Source: Synechococcus sp. MEDNS5
GTDB taxonomy: Bacteria > Cyanobacteriota > Cyanobacteriia > PCC-6307 > Cyanobiaceae
Reading direction: 5' to 3'
Length of the DNA stretch: 64,000 bases
Assembly: GCF_014279875.1 (NCBI RefSeq)
Contig: NZ_CP047952.1
Coordinates: 496,001 to 560,000 of the forward strand
Part shown: positions 7,033 to 28,249 of the stretch, piece by piece
Layout: each line of letters opens with the position of its first letter
How positions within the stretch are numbered: the first letter of the stretch is position 1
Translations under genes and position numbers: made by a program
The notes under the pieces: model-generated
Told to the model about the DNA's origin: nothing
The model's database searches: none
Seen by the model: the letters and a program-made list of their open reading frames with translations, nothing else

Positions 7033-9172
<2,140 letters not shown>

Positions 9173-9230
9173 TAGGTTGAACTTGCGGAGCTGAGGTGTT
9201 GAGACTGTGAACCAATCCTTCTAATAAAAT

Positions 9231-9464: not shown

Positions 9465-10329
<865 letters not shown>

Positions 10330-10378
10330 TCTGCGGCTGAATTCGTCTTCTTCTTTCCTTCTCAGCACCCTTATCTAA

Positions 10379-10882
<504 letters not shown>

Positions 10883-10903
10883 ACTGGCAACGGCTGTGAG
10901 AGA

Positions 10904-10933
10904 GAGGGGGGCGATAAGCCCCCCCCTTTTTTT
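10904..10933 (+). terminator. Intrinsic terminator after cpeBA
   Basis: A GGGGGGC/GCCCCCC stem with a five-base GATAA loop (10906-10924) is followed by extra C and seven T. It begins about 20 bp after the cpeA stop. Confidence 0.92.
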
Positions 10934-10991
10934 GATGACTGCAGGCTTCTCAGATTGAATCGCGGCTATGTAGTTGTTCCGTTAAGATTGA

Positions 10992-11792: not shown

Positions 11793-11924
11793 TTCCCTCT
11801 TGCAGACCTTATGATAATACTTTAAATCTAAATGCTGAGAAGTGGCCCAATGCTTTTCTTATTGTTGTTTAAGAACGCTTGATAATTGGGCGTGTAGAAT
11901 TTAATTGATATTAGTCTTTCTTTT

Positions 11925-13250
11925 ATGTCGGGCTTGTTTGACAATATTCACCCTGAGTTGGACCAGGCTGGTGCTATCGAGATCTTGGCTACAGAGTTCC
12001 AAGATCTTGAAAGCGACAGTGACTACTATATGGCCATTGCGCACTTGGTCAATTTTCCTAGTCAGTTGGCAAATGAAGCATTGCTGAATTTTCTTGGCAG
12101 GGTGTCGACTGAGTCTGCTGTCCTTCTTGCTCAACGAAAAGCTGTAGAAGTTCTTGCCCGGCTAGGGGTGACGCAAGCTCAGGAGAAAATTGCCAGTTTT
12201 CTTGATAGTTCGGATATCTATATGGTCGAAAATGCTGCCTGGGCACTGGCACAAATAGGCTGCCAAGATCAATCTGTTCATCAGCGCTTAATACAATTGT
12301 TGCATGATTCAAGACAGAATCAACGGGTTTTAATTCAAAGTTTGTCTCAACTCTCCGTCTTTACAGCACTTTCGTCGATTGCTCCCTTAATGGATCATGA
12401 AAAGTCTTCTGTGTGCGGTGCTGCAATTGCGGCCACAATTCACTTGTCAGGAGATAGGACACGTCTCGCTGATTTGGCTGATCATTTGTACGTTCCTAAT
12501 CAGATGGATCGTCAGTCGGCAGTTCAAGATGTAATCGATGCTGGTGGGATTGAACTCATGTCGAGTTTGCTTCAGGCACCCATTTCACCAGCGTTTCGAA
12601 TGAGAGCTGTTCGTGCTCTTGTCGACCGATCGTCAGGTGAGCAGTTGAAAAATAGTGCTCTTTCGGCTGTTGACCAGGTCCTTCGCGATGACCCCAGGCT
12701 GATCACGGTGCTTCATCACTATGGAGACCCCCTACCGACTCAGCTGCTTGTCGAAGGTCTGTTTCATCCTGATTTCAGTCGCTGCTATTTGTCGATGCAA
12801 ACCCTGCTGGATCGTGATCCAGATGAAGTCTGGACCCATGTCTGGGCGAGTTGGCATAAGAAAGCCCATAACGACTATGGAGCGCACTATTTCATGATGC
12901 ATCTATTTGGTCTCATAAGGAATTGGAGTCATGAGGCCCTTGCGTCTATTCACGATATCCTGTCGGATGCTATTCGAGATAGACGTCCACAATTCAGGAA
13001 ATCTCCATCTGCTGCGTTGTTGTCTTTTGCCATCTTATTTCCTGGGCAGTGCGACCACTTCTTGAATGATGGTTTGACTACCGTAATGCAACCATTTTGG
13101 GATTTCCGTTATACATCGCTTCTACTACTTCAATCTCCCGAGTTGAGTCAAATCCGGTCTCAAAATCTTGAAGTAGTCAGTAATTTGTCTGAATCGGATC
13201 CAGATTATTTTGTTCGTTGGAAAGCGCACTCGATTCTCCAATATACATAG
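11925..13250 (+). CDS. cpeY: Phycoerythrobilin lyase CpeY (alpha-PE-I Cys82)
   Basis: CpeY is an E/F-clan lyase that attaches phycoerythrobilin to Cys82 of CpeA; CpeZ acts as its chaperone. The 441-residue protein begins MSGLFDNIHPELDQAGAIEI and consists of HEAT/PBS-lyase repeats such as YMVENAAWALAQIG and SSVCGAAIAATIHLSGD. Length and order (cpeY then cpeZ, 74 bp apart) match the family. A TAGAAT hexamer at about 11896-11901 may be the -10 element. Codon and base composition are AT-richer than in the flanking housekeeping genes. Confidence 0.9.
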   Translation: MSGLFDNIHPELDQAGAIEILATEFQDLESDSDYYMAIAHLVNFPSQLANEALLNFLGRVSTESAVLLAQRKAVEVLARLGVTQAQEKIASFLDSSDIYMVENAAWALAQIGCQDQSVHQRLIQLLHDSRQNQRVLIQSLSQLSVFTALSSIAPLMDHEKSSVCGAAIAATIHLSGDRTRLADLADHLYVPNQMDRQSAVQDVIDAGGIELMSSLLQAPISPAFRMRAVRALVDRSSGEQLKNSALSAVDQVLRDDPRLITVLHHYGDPLPTQLLVEGLFHPDFSRCYLSMQTLLDRDPDEVWTHVWASWHKKAHNDYGAHYFMMHLFGLIRNWSHEALASIHDILSDAIRDRRPQFRKSPSAALLSFAILFPGQCDHFLNDGLTTVMQPFWDFRYTSLLLLQSPELSQIRSQNLEVVSNLSESDPDYFVRWKAHSILQYT

Positions 13251-13324
13251 TGCATGTATGAGACGTCTGCGTCTGTTTTCGGTTGATCACCAGTGCTAAA
13301 ATAATTTATCAATTCAGGCTTTCT

Positions 13325-13963
13325 GTGAGCGATAATCAGTCTGTGCCTTCCATTGATTCCCTATTCGAGGATCTTAGGCATCCCAACCCTAGGATCCAAG
13401 AAGAAGCCAGTTTAATTCTTTCGGAGCACTATCAGGAAGAAGCCTTGCCTATATTATTGGAACTATTCTGTCATCAAGATCCCAAAGTGTACAGAGCAGC
13501 AGTTAAGGGAATTGGTTTTTTTGGGAGTTCTGCATTCGATCCTTTGATCGAACTTTATGCAACAACTGAGAATCAAACTGCAAGGCGTTGTTGCCCGAAA
13601 GCATTCGTTCAATTGTTCAAGAATTTTCCTGATCAACCGTTTCCTGATTCAGTCATAGAAATGTTGGAACAAGCGATTAATGACACAGACATGGTAGTCG
13701 TACAAGGAGCTCTGATGTGTCTTGGTCAAATCGGTAAGCAACAGTTCAAGTCTGAAGAGGCAATTAAACTACTCGCAAAATCTCTCAGCAGTGAAAATGT
13801 GGCTTTGATCTTTAGTGCATCTCAGGCTCTTGCTGATATCCCGCATCCCATGGCGGAGGTCGCTTTGCATGCACTTCAAGATAATAATGACGATCCGCTG
13901 ATTCAGGAAGCAGCTCAGTCTGCATTGGCGCGACTTCAAGATCTACTCAATTCAAGGAGTTAA
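13325..13963 (+). CDS. cpeZ: Phycoerythrin lyase-chaperone CpeZ
   Basis: CpeZ helps CpeY and other lyases fold phycoerythrin subunits. The protein has HEAT-like repeats: PRIQEEASLILSEHYQEEA, PKVYRAAVKGIGFFG and MVVVQGALMCLGQIG. I start it at the GTG (13325-13327), giving 212 residues and SDNQSVPSIDSLFEDLRHPN as the N-terminus. The open frame extends back to a TTG at 13283 without homologous sequence. It follows cpeY and converges on the Nif11-like gene 10 bp away. Confidence 0.88.
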   Translation: MSDNQSVPSIDSLFEDLRHPNPRIQEEASLILSEHYQEEALPILLELFCHQDPKVYRAAVKGIGFFGSSAFDPLIELYATTENQTARRCCPKAFVQLFKNFPDQPFPDSVIEMLEQAINDTDMVVVQGALMCLGQIGKQQFKSEEAIKLLAKSLSSENVALIFSASQALADIPHPMAEVALHALQDNNDDPLIQEAAQSALARLQDLLNSRS

Positions 13964-13973
13964 AACCTTTTCT

Positions 13974-14318
13974 TTATCCAGTCACTGCTTTTACTCCTTC
14001 GTAATAGCCTCCAGCGCGAAAATCAAAACGCTCAACTTTGTCCTCTTTGGTACATGTTGTTTGTGAATAATGCAGCAGTGTGCTGAATCCCTCGGGTACC
14101 ATTTTTGGGCATAACCTTCCCACATCGTTGGCGAATGGGCAGAAATACACACCTGCCCACCGATTCAGGAAACGCCCTTTTATTTCATCCGAAAAGATAA
14201 ACCCATGTTGATCAGCAAGCTTGAGGATTTCCTCGGGATCAGCTTCTTGAAAAAGAGCTCTGAACGGTAAATTTTCTTCCAGGACCTGAAGAAAGCGTAT
14301 GAACTCAGCGCGCGACAT
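13974..14318 (-). CDS. Nif11-domain protein, function unknown
   Basis: The N-terminal ~50 residues are a clear Nif11 domain: a MSRAEFIRFLQVLEENLPFR helix, EEILKLADQHGFIF, then a Trp-containing segment. In other systems Nif11 domains are leader regions of ribosomal peptide natural products. Here there is no Gly-Gly cleavage site and no short core peptide. Instead a 60-residue C-terminal part with four cysteines follows (YFCPFANDVGRLCPKM, SQTTCTKED). It lies convergent to cpeZ and downstream of cpeF, 159 bp behind it. A rod-assembly or regulatory role is inferred only from location. Confidence 0.72.
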   Translation of the reverse strand: MSRAEFIRFLQVLEENLPFRALFQEADPEEILKLADQHGFIFSDEIKGRFLNRWAGVYFCPFANDVGRLCPKMVPEGFSTLLHYSQTTCTKEDKVERFDFRAGGYYEGVKAVTG

Positions 14319-14477
14319 AAAAGATCACCTATATGTTCAAATTTTATCAGCATCTATCCGCTTTTTACCAGGATCACTGAAAATGCTCCGCTAACTTTAC
14401 AAGAGAGAACTTGGGGTATTTGAGGTATCCTTGGAATTCTTCAGTGCCCTTCTGTGCATTGTTTTGACCCTAGCTTC

Positions 14478-15383
14478 TCACAAATTTCTGCTTAGTATGT
14501 TGATGGCGACATCAAATACTGCTTGAACTGACTCGTCATCTTCTGTTGCCTTTGCCTTCTCTATGCTTTCTACAGAGTTAAATGCTTCAAGCTTCATCAG
14601 TGCCATCGCCGTGTTTTTTCGTACCTGCGTGTCTTTGTCGATCAGTTTCCTTGTCAGCATATGTTCAACATCTTCGGCATCACATGATTTTCCGATAAGT
14701 GTTACAGCTTCTGCTCTAACGTCTGGTGAGCAGTCATCTAAAGCTCTGAACACTCTATTTTTTGCACGATGATCGTCACTCTTTTGTATTTGATCTCCTA
14801 GGGCTGAAATTGCAGCTACGCGAACTTCAGTCACGTCTGACTCTGCAGCCTCGAGTAATGCCTCAGGTGCTTTGGCGCCGATGAAACTAAGCGCAAGATT
14901 AATCAAGCCCACCTGAAATGGTGTGCAGTCTGGATTTTTCAGGATCCCAAGTAATGAGTCCATAGCGTCGGGTCCAATCGTTGCCATTGCTCCAGCAGAT
15001 GACCCGAGGACAACTGGATCACTGTCTTCTAAAAAAGCTTCGAGGAGATAAGGCAGAGCCTCCTTACTTCCAATCAAATTGAGTGTTTTGGCTGATGCTC
15101 TTCTGACGACTACATTTTGGTGTTGGCGAAGAGCTTCACAAAGAATGGGTAGAGCCTCGTCTCCTACTGCGCCAAGGCTTTTTGCAAAGGTTAGTCGTAG
15201 GGCTCCTCTAGCATCACCAAGGCCAGCAACCATTTTCTTGAGAGACTCTGCATCAGACCCAGGTCTCTCACCATCACTTAATTTTAAACTTAGTTCGTTG
15301 GCGAGTTGAAGCGCTTCTTCTTCGGTGAGCTGACTGTCGCTGAGTGACGAGACATTAGAGAAATCCTGGAGCACTGTGGGCAT
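14478..15383 (-). CDS. cpeF: Phycoerythrobilin lyase CpeF (MpeV family) for doubly linked beta-PE bilin
   Basis: CpeF/MpeV proteins are E/F-clan lyases that attach the doubly linked bilin (Cys50/61) on beta-phycoerythrin. The 301 residues start MPTVLQDFSN, pass LTEEEALQLANELSLKL and MVAGLGDARGALRLTF, and continue as HEAT repeats (VVVRRASAKTLNLIG, PVVLGSSAGAMATIG, EVRVAAISALGDQIQ). This N-terminal layout is that of CpeF rather than of CpeY or MpeU. It lies downstream of mpeC, separated by a terminator. Distinguishing CpeF (PE-I) from MpeV (PE-II) specificity needs biochemical or phylogenetic data. Confidence 0.85.
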   Translation of the reverse strand: MPTVLQDFSNVSSLSDSQLTEEEALQLANELSLKLSDGERPGSDAESLKKMVAGLGDARGALRLTFAKSLGAVGDEALPILCEALRQHQNVVVRRASAKTLNLIGSKEALPYLLEAFLEDSDPVVLGSSAGAMATIGPDAMDSLLGILKNPDCTPFQVGLINLALSFIGAKAPEALLEAAESDVTEVRVAAISALGDQIQKSDDHRAKNRVFRALDDCSPDVRAEAVTLIGKSCDAEDVEHMLTRKLIDKDTQVRKNTAMALMKLEAFNSVESIEKAKATEDDESVQAVFDVAINILSRNL

Positions 15384-15465
15384 CGCACAATCTTCATATC
15401 AATCTAATCGATTACGGTTGTTGTACTGTTGATTCCTTGAAGCTTTTTCGCCCACGAGCTCTTGG

Positions 15466-15496
15466 ACAAAAAAAAGCTCCCTTTTGAAAGGGAGCT
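15466..15496 (-). terminator. Intrinsic terminator after mpeC
   Basis: The minus strand has an AGCTCCCTTT/AAAGGGAGCT stem (15475-15496) followed by a run of T. It lies about 55 bp behind the mpeC stop and ahead of cpeF. Confidence 0.85.
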
Positions 15497-15549
15497 GGTC
15501 ATCACACACTTGAGTGTTGAATTCTGACCATTAGACCATTTTGGGTCGG

Positions 15550-16431
15550 TCAGAAGTGGATTCCGAAGGGGCGGAATGCGACGTAGTCTGTCTGCTTAGG
15601 AGGCTGATGACCGCTGTACTGCTGTTGAGGCAGCTTTGGAGCAGGCTTGGTAAGTGCAAAATAGTTAAATGTCACAGGTTTAATCGCGCTGCTCGCTGCT
15701 AAGGCGAGTGGTGAAACGGTGCGGCTCCGGGATCCCTGAGCGTTGTCACTAACTGCTACTTTGGTGCTGGCAAGCTCCCTCATCATGTTGAAGGAGGACG
15801 TCATCATTCCGGCATAAGAATCAGTAGTCCGCACGTATGGGACGATATCCGAACCGAAGACCTCGGCATATTCTGCCCCATCCGTCAGGCTATCGATGAG
15901 AGCATCAAATCCCTGTTCGGCCTGCAGCTTAATGCTGGCCTGAATTTCTGCCTGATTAAGTGGAGCTCGCCCTAAGAGATGTTTGAAGTTCAGTTCGATC
16001 CCTCGCTGGGGCGCGACTGCGTGGAAGTAATTTTTTTTGTAAAAAGGAGATTTGGCCAGACCATTGACGAAGTCACGTACCGTTATTTCTCCATTCATGA
16101 GGCGTGCTTCCAGTGAGGTGCAACGCTCATTTTCCGTTGGAGGTAGGTTCCCGTAAACCTGGCGATAGCTATCGCGGATTGTGCGCTCCAACGCCGCACT
16201 ATCATTGGGGTGATACTCATCGAAGACCGAACCGAATGGACACTCACTGTGGAGTCGAGGGCCGATTCCGAGACCCATAGATGAGCAAGTGTTCCGCTTA
16301 AACTCTGCAATCGAACCTGCCACCGTTCGGGCAACAGTATTCATTCCAGCTTTGCTGGAGGTGGAATACGAAGCGGATTTGGTTCGATTTGCTGCAGACA
16401 TACCTGCAGGAGTAGTTTGTGTGGTGAGCAT
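15550..16431 (-). CDS. mpeC: PE-II-associated chromophorylated rod linker MpeC
   Basis: MpeC is a gamma-type linker inside the PE-II hexamer stack. The 293-residue protein has one PBS linker domain (about residues 75-215: AALERTIRDSYRQVYGN, ITVRDFVNGLAKSPFY, ELNFKHLLGRAPLNQAE). The N-terminal extension carries Cys49 (FKRNTCSSMGLG), the position that bears a bilin in MpeC. There is no C-terminal CpcD domain, so it probably ends a rod distally. It has its own 367-bp upstream region behind the mpeA terminator, so it is separately transcribed. Confidence 0.92.
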   Translation of the reverse strand: MLTTQTTPAGMSAANRTKSASYSTSSKAGMNTVARTVAGSIAEFKRNTCSSMGLGIGPRLHSECPFGSVFDEYHPNDSAALERTIRDSYRQVYGNLPPTENERCTSLEARLMNGEITVRDFVNGLAKSPFYKKNYFHAVAPQRGIELNFKHLLGRAPLNQAEIQASIKLQAEQGFDALIDSLTDGAEYAEVFGSDIVPYVRTTDSYAGMMTSSFNMMRELASTKVAVSDNAQGSRSRTVSPLALAASSAIKPVTFNYFALTKPAPKLPQQQYSGHQPPKQTDYVAFRPFGIHF

Positions 16432-16798
16432 GATAAGGATTTGGAGGTGATTGATGATGTCGAGACCTTCAAGTATTCTGATCGCTCTCGAATTGAGGCG
16501 GTACTTGACAGAACAGCGGGAGGATCCTTAGTGGTTTAAGGTTTGAAACAGGTTTTACAAGTTTCTGCATTCAACCACTCGAGCAATCATCGACAATAAT
16601 TGCGATAGATTTAACTTTGGCTGGCTGATTGTCTTTTTTGGGGGGGTTGGCGCCGATCGATCTAATGTCGCTATCGAGTCGTTGAGTTTCTTTCCTTCGC
16701 AGGAAGTTTTCTCGCATACTGCTAAAAAAAGGGGGTGAGCTATTTGCTCACCCCCTGAGACGACTAGTCGTAAATACCAATCCGTTAAGGACTGATAA
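16432..16798 (-). promoter_or_regulatory. mpeC upstream region
   Basis: The 367 bases between mpeA and mpeC contain the mpeA terminator at their right end (16724-16755) and must contain the mpeC promoter. I found no gene. The stretch 16432-16720 is AT-rich with no convincing operator. Confidence 0.4.
16724..16755 (-). terminator. Intrinsic terminator after mpeBA
   Basis: On the minus strand a perfect GGGGGTGAGC stem (16731-16755, loop of five) is followed by seven T. It begins about 43 bp after the mpeA stop. Confidence 0.93.
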
Positions 16799-17314
<516 letters not shown>

Positions 17315-17342
17315 TCAGATGTGCAGAAATTCAATCTCTGGC

Positions 17343-17918
<576 letters not shown>

Positions 17919-17966
17919 TCAAGATGGACAGTAACCCTGCTTTTTTTGCCTAACTCCCAGACAAGC

Positions 17967-17978
17967 GTGTCAGGACAC
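17967..17978. promoter_or_regulatory. Short palindrome upstream of mpeBA
   Basis: GTGTC-AG-GACAC lies about 90 bp before the mpeB ATG and is flanked by near-direct ACAAG/CAAG repeats. It could be an operator for the PE-II operon. A 5-bp arm is short and may be chance. Confidence 0.25.
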
Positions 17979-18050
17979 ACAAGTTGACAAAAGAAAAATC
18001 GGTAACACCACGACATCATTTGACCTGGTTGTTACTGAAGCAGACACTAA

Positions 18051-19247
18051 TCATGACAACTGTTTAAGTACCTGCCTGCAGGTCCACTTCAGTGGTAGCC
18101 AGTTAGCTGAGACTGAAAGCTCCTCGAGGAGGGGCTTCTGATCAGTCAGCCTCAATCTCAGGCAACCCCAGGCTGCTGCAATCCTCGATTTTGTGTACTG
18201 AGGGATCGTTTCGGCCAGAGCTAGGCAGATCAAGTCACTCCTTTCGGACAAGCCTTGAAGGCTGATGACTGATGTTAAGTAATAGTGAGTAACATAGTCG
18301 CTCCATAATTTTTGTTTAATTTCATTAATTAATTCCATTCTGCTTCGTTTGTCCATATTCATTAGGCTCAAAGCACCACCGTATTGACGTGCTTCGTCTC
18401 GGTGTTGAAGATTATTTTCGATTTCAATTGCGTCAACAGGGCAGACCCACTCTTGTCTGAGCTTTAAATGTTGTGGGTTGTCTTGCAAAAGTTGCGTTAT
18501 TAATTCTGAATATTCATCAGGAACGTGACATGTTTTGTTGGGATCGACGAGCTGGAAAGCGCTTCTTGCCCGTAATGACATGGACACAGGTGCCGTAACC
18601 AGTGCCTCCAATCTTGTGACATCACCAGCATCGCCAAGGTCAATGACGGCGGATCGGCGTCGACCAGCGATGGGATCGATCAGCTGGGGAACCAGATCAT
18701 CTAGACCGGAGGTCTCTTTGTGCACTCTTGCTAAATATGCTTTGGCTGCACCGCAGACGAGCGGATTCTGATCGTTCGCGAGTGGGCGTATTGCCTCTTC
18801 TGCCTTGTTGATTTCCAGCCTGCAAAAGGCCTGGATGACTGCTCGCTTTTGGATATCTTCCCCAGCGAGTGCCTTGATCAAGCTTCTCTGATCGCTTTCT
18901 GTTAGTGGTGCACCAATTTTTGTGATGGCGTCAACAGCGTTAATGACTGCAGCCTCATCTGTGCAAGACAGTGAGCGAAACAGAGTAGGTAATGCCCTAG
19001 TGCTTTTTCTGCGGCCTAGGGCGTCAATGGCTTTTCGTCGTGTGATTCGGTCAAACAGATGTTCCGGACTTAATTCTGCTGCCTTAATGAGGACATCAAG
19101 GGATTCCTCAGTGTCGCTAGCTCCCAACCTCGTCGCAGCCATATATTTGTCGACAGGTCGATCCAATGTCTCTGGGTCGGCCAGAATCACAGACATGGCA
19201 CGATCTTCTGTCAATCCTTCAACCAAGTTGTCGAAACGCTCTGGCAT
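18051..19247 (-). CDS. mpeY: MpeY/MpeQ-type bilin lyase for alpha-PE-II Cys83
   Basis: This E/F-clan protein is 398 residues long and begins [20 protein letters not shown]. It has HEAT-like repeats ([48 protein letters not shown]). Members at this place, directly beside mpeBA, act on Cys83 of MpeA. MpeY attaches phycoerythrobilin; the allelic MpeQ attaches and isomerises it to phycourobilin. The sequence alone does not tell me which; I favour MpeY because the rest of the locus looks like a green-light type. It runs toward mpeBA, with 171 bp between the stop and mpeB. Confidence 0.82.
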
Positions 19248-19485
19248 AGTTTTATTTGCTCGGGTGAATTGATAAAGGTGACAAAGGCAGTCTTCGATTT
19301 CCTGAATAATTTTAGAGCTTATGTTCCACGATTATTGTTTATACGCAAGGAAATATTTACTTTAGGATTCAATATTTAAACTTTAACTTACTCCATCCAT
19401 GAGTGCTGTCGGCTCAGACTGCTGTTGCTGTAATAAAATGCAAAGACCTGTTTTTGGTACTATTCGATCGGTTCGTCGCAACACG

Positions 19486-19806
19486 ATGCCTGTGTCCCCT
19501 GAGCGTGAGCAAGCGCTCTCTGAATTCGTCGCTGCCGTTCAAGCACGGGAGGATGTCCAATCCGAGTTGAACGAGATCACAACTATCGATCAGTTGAAAA
19601 CAATCGTCGACTCTATTGAACCAGCATTGACTGGTGCTGCATTGATACCTTACGAACAGGCAACAAGTCCTCCAAAGATCACCATTGATTCTGGTGTTCT
19701 AGAAAAGAATATTCCATGGCGTCTTTTGCGTTGTCCTGGGGGGCCATTAGTGCTTCAAATGATTTGTACAAGTGTCAACTTTGCTTTGTGGATTGAAAGT
19801 TGTTGA
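19486..19806 (+). CDS. Nif11-like small protein 1, function unknown
   Basis: A 106-residue protein if started at the ATG of 19486. The N-terminal helix pattern (EQALSEFVAAVQAREDVQSE, then TTIDQLKTIVDS) resembles a Nif11 domain, though less clearly than its neighbours. The rest is a Pro/Ile-rich stretch with two cysteines near the end. An earlier ATG at 19399 would add 29 residues including CCCC and is doubtful, since AT-rich promoter-like sequence lies there. It is the first of three tandem + strand genes, divergent from mpeY, and abuts gene 2 with 2 bp between. Confidence 0.55.
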   Translation: MPVSPEREQALSEFVAAVQAREDVQSELNEITTIDQLKTIVDSIEPALTGAALIPYEQATSPPKITIDSGVLEKNIPWRLLRCPGGPLVLQMICTSVNFALWIESC

Positions 19807-19808
19807 GA

Positions 19809-20090
19809 ATGAATCCACCTCCGATTAAAGAATTCATCCAGGCTGTTGTGTATGACCATTCAATTGCCACTGGTCTGAAGGCTTGTGAGACTGACCAGGA
19901 TATTATTGATTATGCAGCTTCCAAGGGATTTATTTTTTCATCGAGTGAATGGCAGCTATATCTTGCTTTGGATCGTAAGACTTTGAGTGATGCAGAATTG
20001 GCAAAGATTCTTGTCGTACCTGTTGAGCATTGGTCCTGGGCATTTCGGAAGGTTGCCTCATGGCGTGCCATGCTCATGGATGGAATTTGA
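19809..20090 (+). CDS. Nif11-like small protein 2, function unknown
   Basis: A 93-residue protein starting at the ATG of 19809. The Nif11 pattern is clear: PPIKEFIQAVVYDHSIATGL, then QDIIDYAASKGFIFSSSEW. The C-terminal half is Trp-rich (VEHWSWAFRKVASW). There is no leader-type Gly-Gly site, no cysteine-rich core and no membrane segment, so it is unlikely to be a peptide-toxin precursor. It sits between the two other Nif11-like genes, 37 bp before the third. Confidence 0.65.
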   Translation: MNPPPIKEFIQAVVYDHSIATGLKACETDQDIIDYAASKGFIFSSSEWQLYLALDRKTLSDAELAKILVVPVEHWSWAFRKVASWRAMLMDGI

Positions 20091-20127
20091 TCTACAATGT
20101 GATTATCTCTATTGAGCAGTCTTTGGT

Positions 20128-20361
20128 ATGACGGATTCCTCCTCTAACGTAAAGCAAGATTTATCTTTGGAATCATTCATTACAATGGTTCGCCAGGATC
20201 CTGATCTCAAAGCTGAAATCAAGGCAGCCCTCAATCAAGATGACGTGATCGCAATTGCTGCATCTAAGGGATATCAATTCGATTCCACGACTATTTTAAG
20301 AAGGTGGAGCAAGCACACTGACTTTACTCAGGATACTTGGATGGGATGGTTTGACGAGTGA
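20128..20361 (+). CDS. Nif11-like small protein 3, function unknown
   Basis: A 77-residue protein with a textbook Nif11 domain: LSLESFITMVRQDPDLKAEI, DDVIAIAASKGYQFDS, then a Trp-containing end (RRWSKHTDFTQDTWMGW). It starts at an ATG with TATGAC context and ends 10 bp before the convergent cpeR gene. It has no cysteine and no core-peptide tail. The tandem arrangement of three diverged paralogues suggests duplication inside the phycobilisome locus. Confidence 0.75.
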   Translation: MTDSSSNVKQDLSLESFITMVRQDPDLKAEIKAALNQDDVIAIAASKGYQFDSTTILRRWSKHTDFTQDTWMGWFDE

Positions 20362-20371
20362 GCCTCAATTG

Positions 20372-20677
20372 TCAAGAAGATATCTCAGAGTACCTTGTTG
20401 TTTTGCTTCCCTTTTTGGCCCAGTATGTCACCAAAGCCTCGCCGCCAGGTCGTGGAACACTAGCAGTTGCTTGCAGGATCTTGAATGATCGTCTAGGTCC
20501 CATTGGCCAGTTTCCAATGGCTTTTACAGTTCTAATTCTCCCCCCCATGGCTCTAATGCAAGTCTCGAACTTGTCTAATTGAGTTTGATCAACAGTTTCA
20601 AAAATAAAGTCGCTTCCAACACAGATTAAATGTTGTGAACGTATCCAGGTTTTCATTTGTTTGTCATAATCAACCAT
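20372..20677 (-). CDS. cpeR: Phycoerythrin gene activator CpeR
   Basis: CpeR is a small cyanobacterial protein needed for expression of phycoerythrin genes. This 101-residue protein shows the family core: KTWIRSQHLICVGSDFIFET, a central LDKFETCIRAMGG and the C-terminal VTYWAKKGSKTTRY. It is the third gene of cpeS-cpeT-cpeR, only 3 bp after cpeT. Targets in this window may include cpeBA and the linker operon (inference). It has no classical helix-turn-helix that I can point to. Confidence 0.85.
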   Translation of the reverse strand: MVDYDKQMKTWIRSQHLICVGSDFIFETVDQTQLDKFETCIRAMGGRIRTVKAIGNWPMGPRRSFKILQATASVPRPGGEALVTYWAKKGSKTTRYSEISS

Positions 20678-20680
20678 TGT

Positions 20681-21295
20681 TCAGGTTTTAAGCTCGAGCC
20701 ATTCGTTAGTGACTTCATTCGAAAAACTTGCGATTTTTTCGAATCGCAGCATCCCATGCTCTGATCCCCAGACTTGCACATTGTTCTCTGGATCAAATCC
20801 ACGATCCCGACTAATCCAGGAGGTTTGATTGAATTCAACTTCACTGACAAGATAAGTCAATTTTCCGTCCCTTGGAATTAGACAACTTTTCCCGGGTTCA
20901 ACATTGCCAACGAAGTGTCCAGGTGATATGGATCTGAAATGCATGGCACAACCGCAGCGCCTCTTCAATGATTCTGAATGCAGTTCGTCCAAAAGTTCGG
21001 GATTGCGTCCAGCGCCGGCAAGTCGGCGAGGATTATCAAAGGCAAAATTCTCCATTACAAACAAGTTCTGATCTAGTACTAGCCGATGTATCCCTTGCCG
21101 GTAGGGATCCCACGGAGCATAGTCATAGCATTGCTCAGAATAAAAGCCTGGTCCTTTAAAGATGCGCCATGGTAATGGTCGGAAAACAATATTGATTCGT
21201 GCGTAATCCTTTGGATTTTCTTGTGCTTGATTAATGTTATCGAATGTGCCTGCAAGAGTCTTGGCAAAGTCTGCAATTGCTGTATAGTTTCTCAT
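20681..21295 (-). CDS. cpeT: CpeT phycoerythrin beta lyase (T-type)
   Basis: CpeT belongs to the CpcT/CpeT family and is the candidate lyase for the C-terminal beta-PE bilin (Cys159/165). The 204-residue protein has FAKTLAGTFDNINQAQENP, INIVFRPLPWRIFKGPGFYS, a QCYDYAPWDPYRQGI segment, CLIPRDGKLTYLVSEVEFN and SRDRGFDPENNVQVWGSE, matching the T-type layout of the cpcT at 5.2-5.8 kb. It lies 8 bp after cpeS and 3 bp before cpeR in an obvious operon. Confidence 0.9.
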   Translation of the reverse strand: MRNYTAIADFAKTLAGTFDNINQAQENPKDYARINIVFRPLPWRIFKGPGFYSEQCYDYAPWDPYRQGIHRLVLDQNLFVMENFAFDNPRRLAGAGRNPELLDELHSESLKRRCGCAMHFRSISPGHFVGNVEPGKSCLIPRDGKLTYLVSEVEFNQTSWISRDRGFDPENNVQVWGSEHGMLRFEKIASFSNEVTNEWLELKT

Positions 21296-21303
21296 ATATA
21301 TCT

Positions 21304-21846
21304 CTAGGCCTTAATTCGTCTGACTTCAGAGGCAAATGAGGTTTGCAGAACTCCTGAGCCTGCAGATGTCTTCAATACAGATGATCTGCACCGAACATTG
21401 TCTGAAACAAACCAGATTCTTTCCTCTGCTATTGATTGCTCATAATGCGTTGTAAGCAAGAATGTGCCATCGTCTAAAAACTGGTATGTCGACTCTGCTA
21501 ATTCGGATTCAGCATACCCCACACTTCTGATCAAGATGCCAGAATAGTCATTTTTTTTCAGTGGGATGATCAGGCACGAGCCTGATGAAACTTGAGATGG
21601 ATCTTCGGGCTCCCAGTCACTTTCGGCTGACCATTCCATCCTGAATGGCGCGACTATGTCGGAGCTATGTCCTTGGTTAGAAGTTGCGGTTGAGAGTAAA
21701 TCCTGAACAGCAGAATCGCATTTCTCGATGGATTCAATGCTTACTTCGCTAAGAACGTCTTCAAATTGTTGAAAAGCTAGAGAATGGCCTGATCTCATGG
21801 AACGCCATTTACCCACACTTTGAGCAACAAATTGCTCAATCGTCAT
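21304..21846 (-). CDS. cpeS: CpeS phycoerythrin lyase (S-type)
   Basis: CpeS attaches phycoerythrobilin to Cys82 of beta-phycoerythrin. Family sequence is plain: TIEQFVAQSVGKWRSMRSGH, SLAFQQFEDVLSEVSIE, GILIRSVGYAESELAESTYQ and TTHYEQSIAEERIWFVSDN. The ATG at 21844-21846 gives the usual N-terminus (MTIEQFVAQS, 180 residues). A second ATG at 21867 would add seven residues. The upstream 57-codon ORF ends inside the start of cpeS, which would couple their translation. The operon continues with cpeT and cpeR. Confidence 0.92.
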   Translation of the reverse strand: MTIEQFVAQSVGKWRSMRSGHSLAFQQFEDVLSEVSIESIEKCDSAVQDLLSTATSNQGHSSDIVAPFRMEWSAESDWEPEDPSQVSSGSCLIIPLKKNDYSGILIRSVGYAESELAESTYQFLDDGTFLLTTHYEQSIAEERIWFVSDNVRCRSSVLKTSAGSGVLQTSFASEVRRIKA

Positions 21847-22009
21847 ACTTTTTAATATTGTGCTCATCCAGCGGCTGGCGATTGCTATGCATCATGTTAA
21901 CCATTGAGTCGATCATCATCGACATGGCCATTGGTGCGGCAGCTACTGATTGCTGAAAAGCTGTGTTCTGAGTCGGTTGTTCTCTTGAAAATGGGCGAAG
22001 AATTGGCAT
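21836..22009 (-). CDS. 57-residue methionine-rich protein overlapping cpeS
   Basis: An ATG at 22007-22009 opens 57 codons ending with a TGA at 21836-21838, inside the first codons of cpeS (11-nt overlap with the favoured start). The product begins MPILRPFSREQPTQNTAFQQ, contains a run with nine methionines in about twenty residues (from APMAM to NMMHS) and ends KKYDD. It is too short for ordinary gene calling. The overlap with cpeS and lack of another gene in this 260-bp gap support translation. It could be a small lyase-operon partner or just a leader ORF setting cpeS translation. Confidence 0.5.
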   Translation of the reverse strand: MPILRPFSREQPTQNTAFQQSVAAAPMAMSMMIDSMVNMMHSNRQPLDEHNIKKYDD

Positions 22010-22128
22010 TGGGAAAAACCGTTTTTAGATTTGGATCTGGTGATTGCGTTCTTGAGGGTCGCCTTTGTATGACCACTCGGCAATCATGACTGATTTGCCT
22101 GTCTGGATTGTGGAAAAAGCGCTAAGGA

Positions 22129-22863
22129 TTAAGCCTTCGCAATAGAAAGGATCTTTCCGCCTTGGGAGAGGATCGAGCGAATCGTTGCCGACATGGAGGT
22201 CTGGTTGACCACCGATTTCTGTACAGCGCGCCGATTGGCTCCAACCTGGCGGCGTGACGTCCAATTGATCGTTAAGGAGTTGGCGTTTCCGACACTCTTG
22301 CGATCAACCACGTCTGGTGAGTTGCCTGAGCAAAGGCTTTGCAGCAACTTGGACTGGCGATCAGCACTGTCGTATCCGGCGTAACCGGCATCAACAACCC
22401 TTGATCGGGTGTAGTTCAGGGTTCGTCCTCCTACCATGCTTTCTGAGGCTCGGTTGTATGGGACCTGATCGACTCCGAAGGCTGATAAATATTCTTCGCT
22501 GTAAACATAGCTTGCCATCTCGGCTTCAAATCCTTCGTCTTGCAGCAGCCTCACATGATTCATTAGCTCGACCTGATCATGAGGAGGACGGCCAAGAAGA
22601 TGCTTGAAATTAAGTTCAACAAACTGATAGGGACTATTGGTCTCAAAGAACAGTTTTTTGTAGGTGTCAGACTGAGCGAGGGCCATAACAAATCCCTGGA
22701 CGGTGAGATCACCATTCATGAATAGTGCTTCAATGGAGCTATTGACATCAAGCTCCATCAGGTGTCGGTTTCCGAAGACCTGGCGATACGTTTGTTGAAT
22801 GACCTCAGCAGCATGACTGGTATCAACGTTGGGTTGTGAAGCAAGAGTTGTGGGCTCAGTCAT
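22129..22863 (-). CDS. cpeE: Phycoerythrin rod linker (CpeE-like)
   Basis: A 244-residue rod linker with one PBS linker domain near residues 15-150 (EVIQQTYRQVFGNRHLMELD, FVELNFKHLLGRPPHDQ, YSEEYLSAFGVDQVPY). A C-terminal CpcD-like segment follows (RSILSQGGKILSIAKA) that caps the adjacent disc. It has no N-terminal cysteine extension, so it is a conventional, uncoloured linker. It is the third gene of a linker run (cpeC-like, double linker, this gene) separated by short spacers. The CpeE name is by size and order. Confidence 0.8.
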   Translation of the reverse strand: MTEPTTLASQPNVDTSHAAEVIQQTYRQVFGNRHLMELDVNSSIEALFMNGDLTVQGFVMALAQSDTYKKLFFETNSPYQFVELNFKHLLGRPPHDQVELMNHVRLLQDEGFEAEMASYVYSEEYLSAFGVDQVPYNRASESMVGGRTLNYTRSRVVDAGYAGYDSADRQSKLLQSLCSGNSPDVVDRKSVGNANSLTINWTSRRQVGANRRAVQKSVVNQTSMSATIRSILSQGGKILSIAKA

Positions 22864-22891
22864 GTTGCTGGAATGGGTATGAAATCTATAA

Positions 22892-22913
22892 GGGCCGCTT
22901 GAGGTTGCGGCCC
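22892..22913 (-). promoter_or_regulatory. Intergenic stem-loop between two linker genes
   Basis: A perfect 7-bp GGGCCGC/GCGGCCC hairpin with an 8-base loop lies in the 74-bp gap between the double linker and the cpeE-like gene. There is no T run, so it is more likely an mRNA processing or stability element than a terminator. Confidence 0.45.
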
Positions 22914-22937
22914 CCTATGGCAGGACTAGATCTGCTC

Positions 22938-24584
22938 TTACATCACCTCAGTGATGGAGACAATTTTGCCTCCACGTGCATGGATGTACTTCATTTGGCT
23001 GGACATGTCCTTGCCGGAGACGAGATAAGTGTTTCCCGCGGTGCGCTGACGTGAACGAGCTGCCTGGGTTGCTACGACAATCCGGAAGCGCTTCTTCGTG
23101 GGATCAGGAGCGCCGGACTGTGTTCCAGTTCGGTTGATTCGCGTCGTCGTAGCACTCCAGCCACTTGGAACCATTCCTGTGGCGACGGAGGTGACAAGAG
23201 AGGAGCTGCTCAGGACCGTGTCACTAGCTGCGAAGCCTTCTGCCAGGCTCAGATGTCGATTGAAGGCAACCTGGGAGCGGCCGTTTTCGGTGAGGATCCT
23301 GGCGTATGGAATGGTGTCTTCACCAAAGATGCTCTGATACTCCACGCTGTCGACGTAGCTGCAGATTTCAGCTTCATAACCACCTTCGGCGAGGATCTTG
23401 GTGTGTTCGCTGATCTCCGCTTGAGACTGTGGGGCTCTACCGAGGAAATGTTTGAAATTCAGCTCGATGAATCGATAAGGAGCGTTGGTTTCGAAGAATC
23501 GCCGCTTGTATTCAGCTGAAAGGCCGACAGCCCGCACAAATTCACGGGTGCTCAAATAACCATCAATGAACTTGCTTTCTGCCGACAGAGCGCGTTCAAA
23601 CTCCATCAGGTGGGGGTTACCCATGACCTGTTTGTATGCAGAGCGAATCAGGGCATTGAGCTGATCCGGGCTGTCTCCTGGGCAACGCTGAAATGTTTCC
23701 TGCTCACGCTGACCAAGACCGAAGGTGACGTATGCGTCGCCGCGAAGCGGAGCGGAGTCATTGCCACTGGTGATGCCAGGAGCTTTGCTGCTGAAACGAC
23801 CAGAAGTGAAGCTTGCGGAGGGACGCACGCCCACGGCCTGACTCGGGACGCTGATCCGAGGAGCGATGCCGGAGGCCAGGCTTCTGGTTAGCGCTGGGCT
23901 TCCTCCACGGGCACTATCACTGCCGGCGAAACTCTTCTCGAGAGCTGCCAGCATCGGGAATGCAGCAGTCGAGAGGTCTGCAGGAGAACTCCAAGAGCGG
24001 GCATAAGGCACAACATCGCTTCCAAATACCTCGAGGTATTCAGCTGAATCGACGATGCTGTCGATGAGGGCTCCCTGCCCCTGTTCTGCCTGCAGGGTGA
24101 TCATGGCAGAAATCTCAGCCTGAGTTTCCGGAGCGCGCCCTAGAAGATGTTTGACATTCAGTTCAACACCCCGCTGTGGAGCAACGCTGTTGAAGAACCG
24201 GCTCTTGTAAAAGCTTGACTTTGCCAGACCTCTTATGAAATCACGCACGGTCAGACGGCCGTCCCTGAGCTGAGCCTCAAGTTCTGTGCACCGCTCAAAA
24301 TTCATGACATGAGCGTTCCCGAAGACCTGTCGGTACGACGCTGAAATGACTGTCTCTAGAGCACCATTGTCCTCCGGGCTGTAGCACTCGCTTGTGACAC
24401 GGTGAGGGCAGTCGGCGTGACTACGGGGCCCCACCCCGATCGCCATTTGATCGCAGGATTGCTTCTTGAACTCCCCAATAGTCAGGGCCGGCTTCTGACC
24501 AGCTTGGCCTTTGCGCTGGAAGCTGACTGGATCTCCCCACTTCGTGGTTGCTCCAAAGCCGAGTGATGTTTGATTGCTGGCCAT
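22938..24584 (-). CDS. 548-residue double-domain PE rod linker (MpeC-like + CpeC-like fusion)
   Basis: This linker has two PBS linker domains. The first (about residues 73-210) is MpeC-like, including the N-terminal extension with a candidate bilin Cys44 (FKKQSCDQMAIG) and ELNVKHLLGRAPETQAE. The second (about 300-435) is CpeC-like (LIRSAYKQVMGNPHLMEFER, ELNFKHFLGRAPQSQAE). A CpcD domain ends it (about 490-548, YIHARGGKIVSITEVM). One protein could therefore bridge a PE-II disc and a PE-I disc. It probably corresponds to the linker called mpeD or cpeC in marine Synechococcus; I am not sure which symbol applies. It follows the cpeC-like gene after 55 bp. Confidence 0.85.
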   Translation of the reverse strand: MASNQTSLGFGATTKWGDPVSFQRKGQAGQKPALTIGEFKKQSCDQMAIGVGPRSHADCPHRVTSECYSPEDNGALETVISASYRQVFGNAHVMNFERCTELEAQLRDGRLTVRDFIRGLAKSSFYKSRFFNSVAPQRGVELNVKHLLGRAPETQAEISAMITLQAEQGQGALIDSIVDSAEYLEVFGSDVVPYARSWSSPADLSTAAFPMLAALEKSFAGSDSARGGSPALTRSLASGIAPRISVPSQAVGVRPSASFTSGRFSSKAPGITSGNDSAPLRGDAYVTFGLGQREQETFQRCPGDSPDQLNALIRSAYKQVMGNPHLMEFERALSAESKFIDGYLSTREFVRAVGLSAEYKRRFFETNAPYRFIELNFKHFLGRAPQSQAEISEHTKILAEGGYEAEICSYVDSVEYQSIFGEDTIPYARILTENGRSQVAFNRHLSLAEGFAASDTVLSSSSLVTSVATGMVPSGWSATTTRINRTGTQSGAPDPTKKRFRIVVATQAARSRQRTAGNTYLVSGKDMSSQMKYIHARGGKIVSITEVM

Positions 24585-24639
24585 TGTTCAGGTGAGATTT
24601 TGAAGTGGTCTGGTGTACGTGATTTCAGTGAGGGGAGCT

Positions 24640-25524
24640 TCAGGTCACCGGTGTGATGCTGGCGATCTTTCCTCCTTCGCGGTGGATGCGTTTGAACTGC
24701 TCCGAGAGCTTGTCGAACGGCACGTAGAAGACCCGGTTGCTGCGGGTGTAGCGGGAGATCCGACGAACGTTGTTGGCGCTGTAGGCGGTGACCTCCACGC
24801 GATACGTGAGGCCTTGCTCGCCTGCGCCGACCCCCAGGCGAGTTGGTGCATCCTGCAGATTTGGGGAAGGACGGAAGCTCCATCCCAAGGACTCGGTTGA
24901 AGACGGTGGAACCACGGGGATGGCACGGTTCTGGTATGCAGAACCACCGAGCTTGCTGCTGATGCCAGCAAGGTCTCCTTTCAGACTGCTGCTGCTATTG
25001 CCTCGCAACAGTTGAAAGCTCCAGGTGAATTCCTGCATGGTTCCACAGCTTTCGGTTTTCCAACCCCGTTGAAAGGGCACCGTCCATTCCCCGAAAGCGT
25101 TCTGATACTCATCAGAGTCCACGAAGCTGTCGATGTCGGCGTCGTATCCACTGCTGTCAAGCCGCTCAGAATGACCACGCATTTCCTCAAAGTCGGCGGG
25201 CGCACGACCCAGTAGGTGACGGAAGGCCAACTCGATGTAGCGGTAGCGTGCGCAGCTTTCAAAGAAGCGACTGCGATACAGGTCGCTCTTGGCTATGCGG
25301 CGAACCAGTTCACGGACGCTGATCTCTCCAAGCTTGAACTGAGATTCAGCGACAACCTGACGCTCGCTGTCCATGACATAAGCATTGCCAAGAACCTGCT
25401 TGTACACCGCCCGAATGATCTGTTCTTTTCGGGCATCGTCATCGCCAGGGATCAGCTCGAATGGTGCCTCACTCTCTTCCGAGAAGCGTTCGACCCCTAG
25501 AAGTGAGGCAGGTCCAAAGGGCAT
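24640..25524 (-). CDS. cpeC: PE-I-associated rod linker (CpeC-like)
   Basis: A 294-residue rod linker beginning MPFGPASLLGVERFSEESEA, the N-terminus typical of CpeC/CpeD/CpcC linkers. The PBS linker domain spans about residues 30-170 (IIRAVYKQVLGNAYVMDSER, RRIAKSDLYRSRFFESCARY, ELAFRHLLGRAPADFEEMR). A CpcD domain closes it (YTRSNRVFYVPFDKL, RIHREGGKIASITPVT). It is first in the linker operon and is preceded by a TATAAA element and overlapping palindromes at 25557-25590. Whether it sits at the PC-PE junction or within PE-I is not visible from sequence. Confidence 0.82.
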   Translation of the reverse strand: MPFGPASLLGVERFSEESEAPFELIPGDDDARKEQIIRAVYKQVLGNAYVMDSERQVVAESQFKLGEISVRELVRRIAKSDLYRSRFFESCARYRYIELAFRHLLGRAPADFEEMRGHSERLDSSGYDADIDSFVDSDEYQNAFGEWTVPFQRGWKTESCGTMQEFTWSFQLLRGNSSSSLKGDLAGISSKLGGSAYQNRAIPVVPPSSTESLGWSFRPSPNLQDAPTRLGVGAGEQGLTYRVEVTAYSANNVRRISRYTRSNRVFYVPFDKLSEQFKRIHREGGKIASITPVT

Positions 25525-25556
25525 GGATGCTCTGACGTTTCGCCATGCAATGCTCC

Positions 25557-25590
25557 GTCAGAAGCGTTCTGACAGAACGTGTTCTTTATA
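25557..25590 (-). promoter_or_regulatory. Candidate promoter and operator of the PE linker operon
   Basis: A -10 like TATAAA lies at 25585-25590 on the minus strand. Just downstream, two perfect dyads overlap: CGTTCTG-A-CAGAACG (25565-25579) and GTCAGAA-GCG-TTCTGAC (25557-25573). They would fall near the transcription start, about 35-55 bases before the ATG. No good -35 is visible, which would fit an activator-dependent promoter. Confidence 0.5.
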
Positions 25591-25702
25591 AACCTCAATC
25601 AAGTGTGTTCACGTGTTGCGTGGAGTGACCCTTTTGCCAAATTCCCTCGCCCCCAAGCAGTTGTGGGTTAGGGCTTTGTGGCTGTAGGTGGGCAGGCCGG
25701 GG

Positions 25703-26416
25703 CTAATCTGCCCTGGCAGCCCGTAACGATTCAAGGCTGTCACGTGTTGTAGAGCGTGTTATTGGGTTCCAGCAATCGAGTTCTTCAACTGATCGGGACA
25801 ACAGAGCATCGATCTGAGTGCCCAGCCCTGTGCAGAGGGAAAAATCGGCGCCTCTGATCGACTCGACTGTTTCTAGAACAGCTCCTTCCAAGTCAGCGCC
25901 GCGAAGATCAGCCATGTCGAGTTCGCAGGTGCCGAATCGTGTCCCGCGGCACATTGCTCCCCGCATGGTGGACGACCGGAGATCTGAACCGGCCAGTGAA
26001 ACGCCATCAAGTATCGCTCCGCTTAAGTCAGCTCCACTCAGATAGCTGCCAAGCAGCATGCTTCCCCGCAGATCCATGCCTCGCAGGTCGGAGCTGTTGA
26101 GATAGACACCGTTGAGCTTGGCGCCGGGCCCAACAGCTCCACTGTTGCTCAAGTCGAAACCAACAGGTACGACGGTTTGGCTGTCATAGCGAGCTAGGCG
26201 GAGATCCGCGCCATCAAGTTGGCAATGACTGAGATCTGTGCCTCGTAAATCGCAGCGACAAAGCTTTGCTCCGCGTAAATCGAGTCCGCCCAGCTCGATC
26301 CCGTGCCAGTCAGCACCTCTTGCATCAACGGGTACTAGAGGTGAACCGTTTGGCAAGAGATTTTCCGGTGCCGTCCACTCACGCAGGTTGAGGGGTGCAG
26401 ATCCGGTGGTGGACAT
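25703..26416 (-). CDS. Pentapeptide-repeat protein of the rod locus
   Basis: The 237-residue product is mostly A(D/N)LxX pentapeptide repeats (GGLDLRGAKLCRCDLRGTDL, GADLSGAILDGVSLAGSDL, MADLRGADLEGAVL), which fold as a right-handed quadrilateral beta helix. The ATG at 26414-26416 starts MSTTGSAPLNLREW; a frame 18 codons longer overlaps the linker gene and is less likely. It lies one base behind the CpcL-type linker, so both are probably translated from one mRNA. No enzyme domain is present; a scaffold or chaperone role is possible but unproven. Confidence 0.85.
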   Translation of the reverse strand: MSTTGSAPLNLREWTAPENLLPNGSPLVPVDARGADWHGIELGGLDLRGAKLCRCDLRGTDLSHCQLDGADLRLARYDSQTVVPVGFDLSNSGAVGPGAKLNGVYLNSSDLRGMDLRGSMLLGSYLSGADLSGAILDGVSLAGSDLRSSTMRGAMCRGTRFGTCELDMADLRGADLEGAVLETVESIRGADFSLCTGLGTQIDALLSRSVEELDCWNPITRSTTRDSLESLRAARAD

Positions 26417-26417
26417 G

Positions 26418-27152
26418 TCAACTTTTCGCCATTGCCAAAGCGATCGTAAGGACCACCCGTCCCAGTTCAAATACTCCTACCAGGGCAAGTCCAAGCCAGA
26501 TCCTTAGCGCGAAGGCCGGAGGCTGGCCGTTGACCCAGGCCGCGGAGGTCTTCAGCTGTTGCATCTGAGCGGCTTGATCGCTTGGGGCCCGATCCTGCAG
26601 TGCATCCCGCCAACCGGCCCCGTAGCGCGGGAACTGTTGGTAAATCGGCGTTTCACCGAGGGCCCGTCCGGGGAGCAGCCTCGATCGTTGCTGCGGCACG
26701 AGGTCATAGCCGAAGCTGTCCATGTACTCGCTGCTGTCCAGCAGGGCTTCAACGAATGCTGTGAAACCCTTCTCCCCGATCACAATCGACCAGCTGATGC
26801 GTTCGCACTCGCCGTGAACGGAGCGCCCAAGGACGCGTCCAACCAGCTGATCGACCAAGCGGTAATTGCTGCTGCAGGCGACGTAGCCCTCCTGAAACCG
26901 TCTGGAGAGCAGCAGGCCACGAATGAAGTCACGCATTGTGATGCTGCCATCGCGCATCTGGGATTCAAGGGCTTCGTCCCGATCACGCTTCATGGCGTGA
27001 AAGAAAATCTGCCGGTAAGCCTGTTCGATCTGAACACTGCGGTCGCTTCGGCTTGGATTAACGGTGCGTAGCTCCTGAGGCTTTAGCCCTCCCAAATCGC
27101 CGACCCTGCAGTTCATGGTTGTTAGGGGATAACTGAGTTGGGGGGATGCCAT
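26418..27152 (-). CDS. cpcL: CpcL-type rod linker with C-terminal membrane helix
   Basis: The N-terminus and PBS linker domain are CpcG-like: SYPLTTMNCRVGDLGG, IEQAYRQIFFHAMKRD, ITMRDFIRGLLLSRRF, VGRVLGRSVHGECER and LLDSSEYMDSFGYDLVP. Instead of an ordinary CpcG tail, the last ~33 residues form a hydrophobic helix (ALRIWLGLALVGVFELG followed by VVLTIALAM). In other cyanobacteria such CpcL (CpcG2) linkers anchor core-less rods to the thylakoid beside photosystem I. It is 244 residues long and overlaps nothing upstream; the pentapeptide gene follows after one base. Confidence 0.82.
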   Translation of the reverse strand: MASPQLSYPLTTMNCRVGDLGGLKPQELRTVNPSRSDRSVQIEQAYRQIFFHAMKRDRDEALESQMRDGSITMRDFIRGLLLSRRFQEGYVACSSNYRLVDQLVGRVLGRSVHGECERISWSIVIGEKGFTAFVEALLDSSEYMDSFGYDLVPQQRSRLLPGRALGETPIYQQFPRYGAGWRDALQDRAPSDQAAQMQQLKTSAAWVNGQPPAFALRIWLGLALVGVFELGRVVLTIALAMAKS

Positions 27153-27206: not shown

Positions 27207-27809
27207 TCAGAAACTTTTGGTCTCGTCATGATGTTGAGAAATACGAACCATCCTGCTGATGTGCAGGAGGGTTTCACTCAGGGCTGTTGTTTCTTGCTTG
27301 GCATCCGCTGCATCAGCTTGGGTCTTGCAGAGTTCCGCCAGCTCATCGAGGAGCGTCAACAGAGCTGGGACGGGAACGTCGAGATAGGCGTAGAGCTCTG
27401 CAAGAGCATGCATTCCACTGGCATTGGTGATGGCCGTTCGCTGCAGTGCCACGCCGTAGAAGCTGATCCGCAGAAACTGAAAGCAGTCGTTCCAGCAGGC
27501 CTGCGCCCGCTCTTCGGGGTGGAGGCCGCCACCGGGTCGCGTCAGCTGAGGTAGCTGGCTCAAAAGAGTGTGTCGTGCCTGGTTCACCAGGTCTTCGGTC
27601 TGGTTCTGGAGCTGGATCAGAGCTTTTGCGTTCACGCCAGACCAAGCGCACAGTTGTTCGAGTTCACCGAGGTGGAGAAGTCTTTTGTCTTGATTGGCGC
27701 GAATCAAGATGACGAGAAGGTTTTTGGGAACGCCATCCAAGCTCCCTGGATCAAACACGCGTGCTCGTCGAGCAAGCTCAACAATCCGCTGCTGATCCCA
27801 ACCGTTCAC
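27207..27809 (-). CDS. AplA-like phycobilisome-domain (globin-like) protein
   Basis: A 200-residue protein with a phycobiliprotein-type globin fold. RPGGGLHPEERAQACWNDCF, then QFLRISFYGVALQRTAITNA, aligns with the Cys82/84 region of alpha chains. Cys105 is at the bilin site and Asp108 at the position of the pyrrole-binding Asp. GMHALAELYAYLDVPVPALL follows as in AplA, an allophycocyanin-like protein outside normal light harvesting. It overlaps the upstream 147-residue gene by 4 nt. A bilin sensor or assembly role is inferred; binding is not shown. Confidence 0.7.
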   Translation of the reverse strand: MNGWDQQRIVELARRARVFDPGSLDGVPKNLLVILIRANQDKRLLHLGELEQLCAWSGVNAKALIQLQNQTEDLVNQARHTLLSQLPQLTRPGGGLHPEERAQACWNDCFQFLRISFYGVALQRTAITNASGMHALAELYAYLDVPVPALLTLLDELAELCKTQADAADAKQETTALSETLLHISRMVRISQHHDETKSF

Positions 27810-28249
27810 TGCGATTCGCTGGCGACTGGCTTGCTTGGAAGAATCGGGGAGGCCGTTAGCCAGCCGTGGCGCTCGAGATAGAACGCCCAGGTCACCTCCC
27901 CTGCGAGGCCTGGGCAGTGTTCCGGTACCGCCTCAGCAAGGGATGGCTCGACTCCGAGTGTTTGAAGCAGGTTCACGATCGCTTCGGCTTGGTCAATCGA
28001 GGTGTTGCGAATTGCGGCCCCAACAACCCAGGTCAGTTGCGTGGCTTCCAGGGCGCAGGAGCTGCTTTCGCACGCCAAAAGAATATTCCCTGGTTCATCG
28101 ATCAAGAGGAGTGTGTCTTGCCAAAGGGTTCGATCATCTGGCTTCACATTGATGCGCAGAACCCCTCCCCCGATGCTGTATCGACGCTCCATCTCCGGTG
28201 CGAGCTCCGCTGTGAGCGAGCGGATGATGGTCGCAGATGATGCTGTCAT
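27806..28249 (-). CDS. Protein of unknown function coupled to the AplA-like gene
   Basis: A 147-residue soluble protein with alternating strands (RRYSIGGGVLRINVKPDD, QDTLLLIDEPGNILLACESS) and then a mixed helical half containing AEAIVNLLQTLGVEPSLAEA. I recognise no family. ATG start; the 4-nt overlap with the downstream AplA-like gene implies co-translation. Two cysteines (ACESSSCAL) are close together. It marks the end of the minus-strand rod-gene run and is divergent from the 132-residue coiled-coil gene. Confidence 0.7.
   Translation of the reverse strand: MTASSATIIRSLTAELAPEMERRYSIGGGVLRINVKPDDRTLWQDTLLLIDEPGNILLACESSSCALEATQLTWVVGAAIRNTSIDQAEAIVNLLQTLGVEPSLAEAVPEHCPGLAGEVTWAFYLERHGWLTASPILPSKPVASESQ

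Follow-up and report, generated by a model that had tools for sequence, protein, structure and literature searches.

The rod locus of Synechococcus sp. MEDNS5 raises the question of whether a marine cyanobacterium with PE-II possesses a linker that holds rods on the membrane and dispenses with an allophycocyanin core. Linkers of the CpcL type are CpcG-like proteins with a membrane-spanning tail, and a preliminary description of this DNA placed such a gene at 26418-27152. We analysed the gene within a window of 64,000 nucleotides, the whole stretch of DNA under study, to which all coordinates below refer.

Identity of the gene and composition of the rod locus

An open frame of 244 aa fills 26418-27152 exactly, on the minus strand (the preliminary description gave no strand). 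The encoded protein is composed of a short N-terminal extension, a PF00427 domain, a variable spacer (residues 186-208) and a hydrophobic tail; a domain search found no CpcD domain in it. Structure comparison matches its PF00427 fold to CpcG and CpcL chains, and the NCBIfam CpcG1-4 models cover residues 1-190 only, every one of them below cut-off. The features of the gene and its surroundings are as follows.

26418..27152, minus strand: cpcL-type gene (cpcGII), 244 aa, ATG at 27152 and TGA at 26418-26420
26685..27050, minus strand: PF00427 phycobilisome linker domain, residues 35-156 (E 1.1e-34)
26424..26516, minus strand: predicted C-terminal transmembrane helix, residues 213-243 (hydropathy, insertion energy, AlphaFold2)
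27207..27809, minus strand: aplA-like gene, PF00502, allophycocyanin-like, upstream of cpcGII (Pfam; Six et al. 2007)
27806..28249, minus strand: unk4, overlapping aplA by 4 nt, no Pfam match, named by position as in Six et al. 2007
25703..26416, minus strand: unk5, pentapeptide-repeat protein, ATG 1 nt past the cpcGII stop
24640..25524, minus strand: PE rod linker with PF00427 and CpcD (domain search)
22938..24584, minus strand: linker with double PF00427 and CpcD, MpeD-like (domain search)
16799..17912, minus strand: mpeA and mpeB, probable PE-II, extra alpha-subunit Cys near position 75
9775..10882, plus strand: cpeB and cpeA (PE-I)
5844..6895, minus strand: rpcA and rpcB (phycocyanin), outside the imported tract described below

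Judged by position (unk4-aplA-cpcGII-unk5) and sequence, the gene is cpcGII of marine Synechococcus. It lies within the rod locus as originally proposed, preceded by unk4 and aplA and immediately followed by unk5, and is orthologous to the known cpcGII genes. Six et al. 2007 (PMC2246261) found cpcGII in the rod region of every marine Synechococcus studied, and in PE-II strains it is located downstream of aplA and followed by unk5. The four MEDNS5 genes look like one operon. The window also contains two PE gene pairs, one of them with an additional alpha-subunit cysteine, together with Nif11-domain genes, in agreement with the proposed PE-II organism; the extra cysteine is typical of MpeA and hence suggests the PE-II label.

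Searches of the whole MEDNS5 genome show that it also encodes ApcE, allophycocyanin-type genes and a CpcG with a soluble tail (G000:C1:2042272). The preliminary description envisaged a PE-rich antenna without an allophycocyanin core. Given these genes, any such antenna would be an addition to normal phycobilisomes and not a replacement, and ordinary phycobilisomes should occur alongside it.

We also considered AplA as an obligatory partner of cpcGII and rejected it, as 25 of the 52 loci with a Glu-Arg tail (see below) lack aplA in the flank, some flanks being short. The aplA-like protein apparently keeps Cys and Asp at the ApcA bilin site (AQACWNDCFQFLR, by eye) and may be chromophorylated.

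The hydrophobic tail

The cpcGII protein ends in PPAFALRIWLGLALVGVFELGRVVLTIALAMAKS, with a top Kyte-Doolittle 19-window of 2.05. Its estimated insertion energy (dG) is -1.6 kcal/mol, which predicts insertion into the membrane and not a soluble tail (Hessa-2007-type scale; glycophorin A control -1.8). On the same scale no segment in the remainder of the protein falls below +4.0, and of 300 shuffles of the whole protein just 2 attain as low a value as the tail. AlphaFold2 models of 12 orthologues contain a single helix at residues 213-243 (block pLDDT 71-85). The initial suggestion of a CpcG-like protein with a hydrophobic helix at its end is thus borne out by the PF00427 match, the insertion energy and the predicted helix.

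The tail is conserved. Of the full-length picocyanobacterial orthologues that could be aligned and scored, 104 of 104 have a tail dG <= +0.4; truncated or frame-broken copies were left out, as was one divergent copy (L081), for which a membrane tail is predicted as well. Moreover, the major-residue frequency is higher in the tail than in the preceding spacer (0.69 vs 0.48; 29-sequence set), and tails like that of MEDNS5 occur in cpcGII of RCC307 (L060) and WH5701 (L101). The paper of Six et al. (PMC2246261) classes the protein with the rod-core linkers and nowhere uses the word "hydrophobic". Our literature search, with the 2022 pigment-type work on marine Synechococcus outside its reach, found no paper that treats the marine gene under the name cpcL, and the membrane tail of the long-known cpcGII seems to have been overlooked until now.

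The membrane tail is missing from one gene only, the cpcGII-like L126/L144 of a metagenome bin, whose tail is soluble and unrelated. A second linker with a transmembrane tail, the cpcGIII type, occurs in several relatives (L048, L137-L142 and L145), where it forms its own clade; it is absent from the MEDNS5 genome.

Within the helix there is one charged pair:

26457..26468, minus strand: Glu229..Arg232 (alignment of 104 orthologues)

These two positions hold E/R in 79 of the 104 orthologues and A/V/M with G in the other 25, with no mixed combination. Support for a coupling of Glu229 and Arg232 is modest, because only two changes are needed on the tree. Lying near the middle of the helix, the two residues weaken the predicted insertion (-1.6, vs -3.0 with Ala/Gly instead). 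Conservation of the helix is not significantly one-sided (permutation p 0.19), and hence a protein-binding face deduced from such one-sidedness was dropped.

Relationship to CpcG and to classical CpcL

MEDNS5 carries one tailed linker (26418-27152) and one soluble-tailed CpcG. The PF00427 body of the latter is about 50% identical to that of cpcGII, while its tail ends in SADIDYLSKVPYRSVGR and scores +5.6. In total, the tails of 33 of 33 CpcG proteins examined score as soluble (dG >= +3.9).

Synechocystis PCC 6803 CpcL (CpcG2; PDB 8hfq) shares with cpcGII the PF00427 body, one C-terminal hydrophobic helix and the lack of a CpcG core-docking tail. The insertion energy of the cpcGII tail lies within the classical CpcL range, and profile comparison (hhalign) of the cpcGII tail with classical CpcL tails gives a score of 30.2; 60 column shuffles reached at most 14.2 and the reversed profile 11.3. 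Counterparts of the bilin-contacting Synechocystis residues R16, R112, R169, R181 and Y182 are kept in cpcGII, whereas N55, Q57, Q58, R163 and R178 are replaced or missing. Two of these, Q57 and R178, are bilin contacts that separate Synechocystis CpcL from CpcG, and they correspond to a gap and to Gln in cpcGII. The Glu-Arg pair is a further difference from Synechocystis CpcL, and among the linkers compared it is seen only in picocyanobacteria.

In the linker-domain tree, picocyanobacterial cpcGII and cpcGIII group together (support 97, one tail-less row included) under one root placement, and Synechocystis-type CpcL stands apart, nested among the CpcGs of other cyanobacteria. A test on a quick tree rejects the hypothesis that all tailed linkers form one clade (p-AU 1.3e-5). 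The literature likewise finds CpcL mixed among CpcG in trees, so that a common clade is not usually a defining feature of CpcL. We therefore describe the MEDNS5 linker as "CpcL-type" and do not claim it as an orthologue of Synechocystis CpcL. Since the tails are detectably alike though the bodies do not form one clade, linker body and tail apparently differ in their history.

The likening of this protein to freshwater CpcL holds for the anatomy of the tail, but such a linker is specific neither to freshwater species nor to MEDNS5, as cpcGII was reported in every marine Synechococcus in 2007 (PMC2246261), and its body falls outside the Synechocystis-type group. A survey cited in a review counts CpcG with a transmembrane tail in 42 of 65 cyanobacteria. 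One report (PMC13342260) records cpcL for Cyanobium NIVA-CYA 375, a picocyanobacterium which resembles MEDNS5 in this combination and is described there as PE-rich without chromatic acclimation.

Proposed function

We consider it likely that the 26418-27152 protein is a CpcL-type rod-membrane linker, with its helix in the thylakoid holding a core-less rod, most likely near photosystem I. The domain, the tail, the conservation of the tail and the contrast with CpcG were computed for this reading, and we infer membrane insertion in vivo, a photosystem I partner, PE on the rods and energy transfer; photosystem I attachment and a PE-rich rod would be ascribed to cpcGII by analogy. The PF00427 domain would plug the membrane-proximal phycocyanin hexamer of the rod, as in the Synechocystis CpcL-PBS, and the single C-terminal helix (~213-243) would enter the thylakoid, in place of the tail by which CpcG attaches to the allophycocyanin core. 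The rod would thereby be held on the membrane without a core, most likely beside photosystem I, and PE-I and PE-II hexamers would stack distally via CpcD-bearing linkers of the same locus. PE would be distal because in the solved complex it is phycocyanin that a CpcL-type linker binds. The FNR of MEDNS5 (G000:C1:1447994) has a CpcD domain at its N-terminus, an arrangement shared with organisms that possess CpcL rods and with those in which FNR is carried on rods. We count against the CpcL-type reading one phycobilisome sighting in WH8102, the Glu and Arg in the helix, the loss of Q57 and R178, and the tail-less L126/L144.

A membrane linker serving photosystem II or another thylakoid complex seems unlikely. 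The sequence names no partner, a review has Acaryochloris CpcL rods with both photosystems, and the Glu-Arg pair, seen only in picocyanobacteria, leaves room for a contact unlike the known one. However, CpcL goes with photosystem I where tested, in Synechocystis and Anabaena; the Synechocystis protein partitions into detergent and the Anabaena protein co-purifies with photosystem I.

It is distinctly improbable that cpcGII encodes a second rod-core linker, which would place a rod on the allophycocyanin core with its hydrophobic tail packed on core proteins or on the membrane beneath the core. Its PF00427 domain retains the FFHA loop of MEDNS5 CpcG, its body does not group with classical CpcL, and Six et al. 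cite one earlier sighting of CpcGII in a WH8102 phycobilisome fraction. However, the soluble C-terminal core-docking segment of the CpcG type is not present in cpcGII, nor is the VP(Y)R-like motif that commonly closes CpcG tails, and the insertion energy is that of classical CpcL. Moreover, mass spectrometry of phycobilisome fractions detected CpcGI and not CpcGII in the strains tested (PMC2246261), as expected if CpcGII stays with the membranes; a membrane anchor would hence explain its lack in the phycobilisomes purified in 2007.

If the CpcL-type reading is true, a universal gene of a major ocean primary producer has been misfiled as a rod-core linker, although its architecture suits the attachment of rods to the membrane, probably at photosystem I. 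This would readily account for the failure to find CpcGII in phycobilisome preparations, and one gene would offer a handle on how PE-rich marine cells feed photosystem I. A more elaborate proposal, that PE-II Synechococcus has a constitutive PE-rich core-less photosystem I antenna on a picocyanobacterium-specific linker, with Glu-Arg docking and co-transcribed AplA as terminal emitter, is very doubtful.

Mosaic origin of the MEDNS5 gene

The MEDNS5 copy is a mosaic, unlike cpcGII as described in PMC2246261. The features concerned are:

7800..26793: imported tract with pebA, PE-I and PE-II genes, lyases, rod linkers, unk5 and the 3' half of cpcGII (identity, G+C)
26748..26794: right-hand recombination junction inside cpcGII, about codons 120-135 (identity to G112)

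Compared with G112, a genome of another genus, cpcGII is 96-100% identical in DNA from codon ~120 to the end and mostly about 57-68% over the first ~120 codons. Positions 26656-26793 are 100% identical, and beyond them identity is about 65%. The whole of 7800-26770 (~19 kb) is 97.7% identical to G112 and 97.5% to G162, whereas most flanking core genes outside the tract are about 70-75% identical to G112; G+C is 49.7% within vs 57-60% outside. The left edge, at about 7.8 kb where pebB begins, is less sharp than the right junction. The C half is closest to L002-L006, and the N half has members of the same genus and their kin (L061-L063, L018, L016) among its closest relatives.

These patterns suggest that the membrane tail most likely came with the PE-I/PE-II gene set through homologous recombination between genera, and that the second half of cpcGII was placed in MEDNS5 recently; which side was donor and which recipient we infer from the flanks only. 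An assembly chimera is unlikely, as the tract lies on one contig (completeness 99.98, contamination 0.08) with just one PE-I and one PE-II set, and diverges by 2.3% from the nearest genome. In spite of the junction inside the gene, it is barely credible that recombination left behind a mosaic without function, because the frame and the motifs on both sides of the junction are intact and both halves match intact relatives (C half 97.6%, N half 76%).

Transfer of rod genes was already proposed in 2007, and our literature search found no description of a mapped recent exchange ending inside cpcGII. The tract documents, almost at base resolution, how an entire set of PE genes can pass from one genus to another, with one boundary falling inside cpcGII. 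The rpc region at 3800-6300 of the window is 82-89% identical to G162 and about 50-87% to G112, and may reflect an older, separate exchange.
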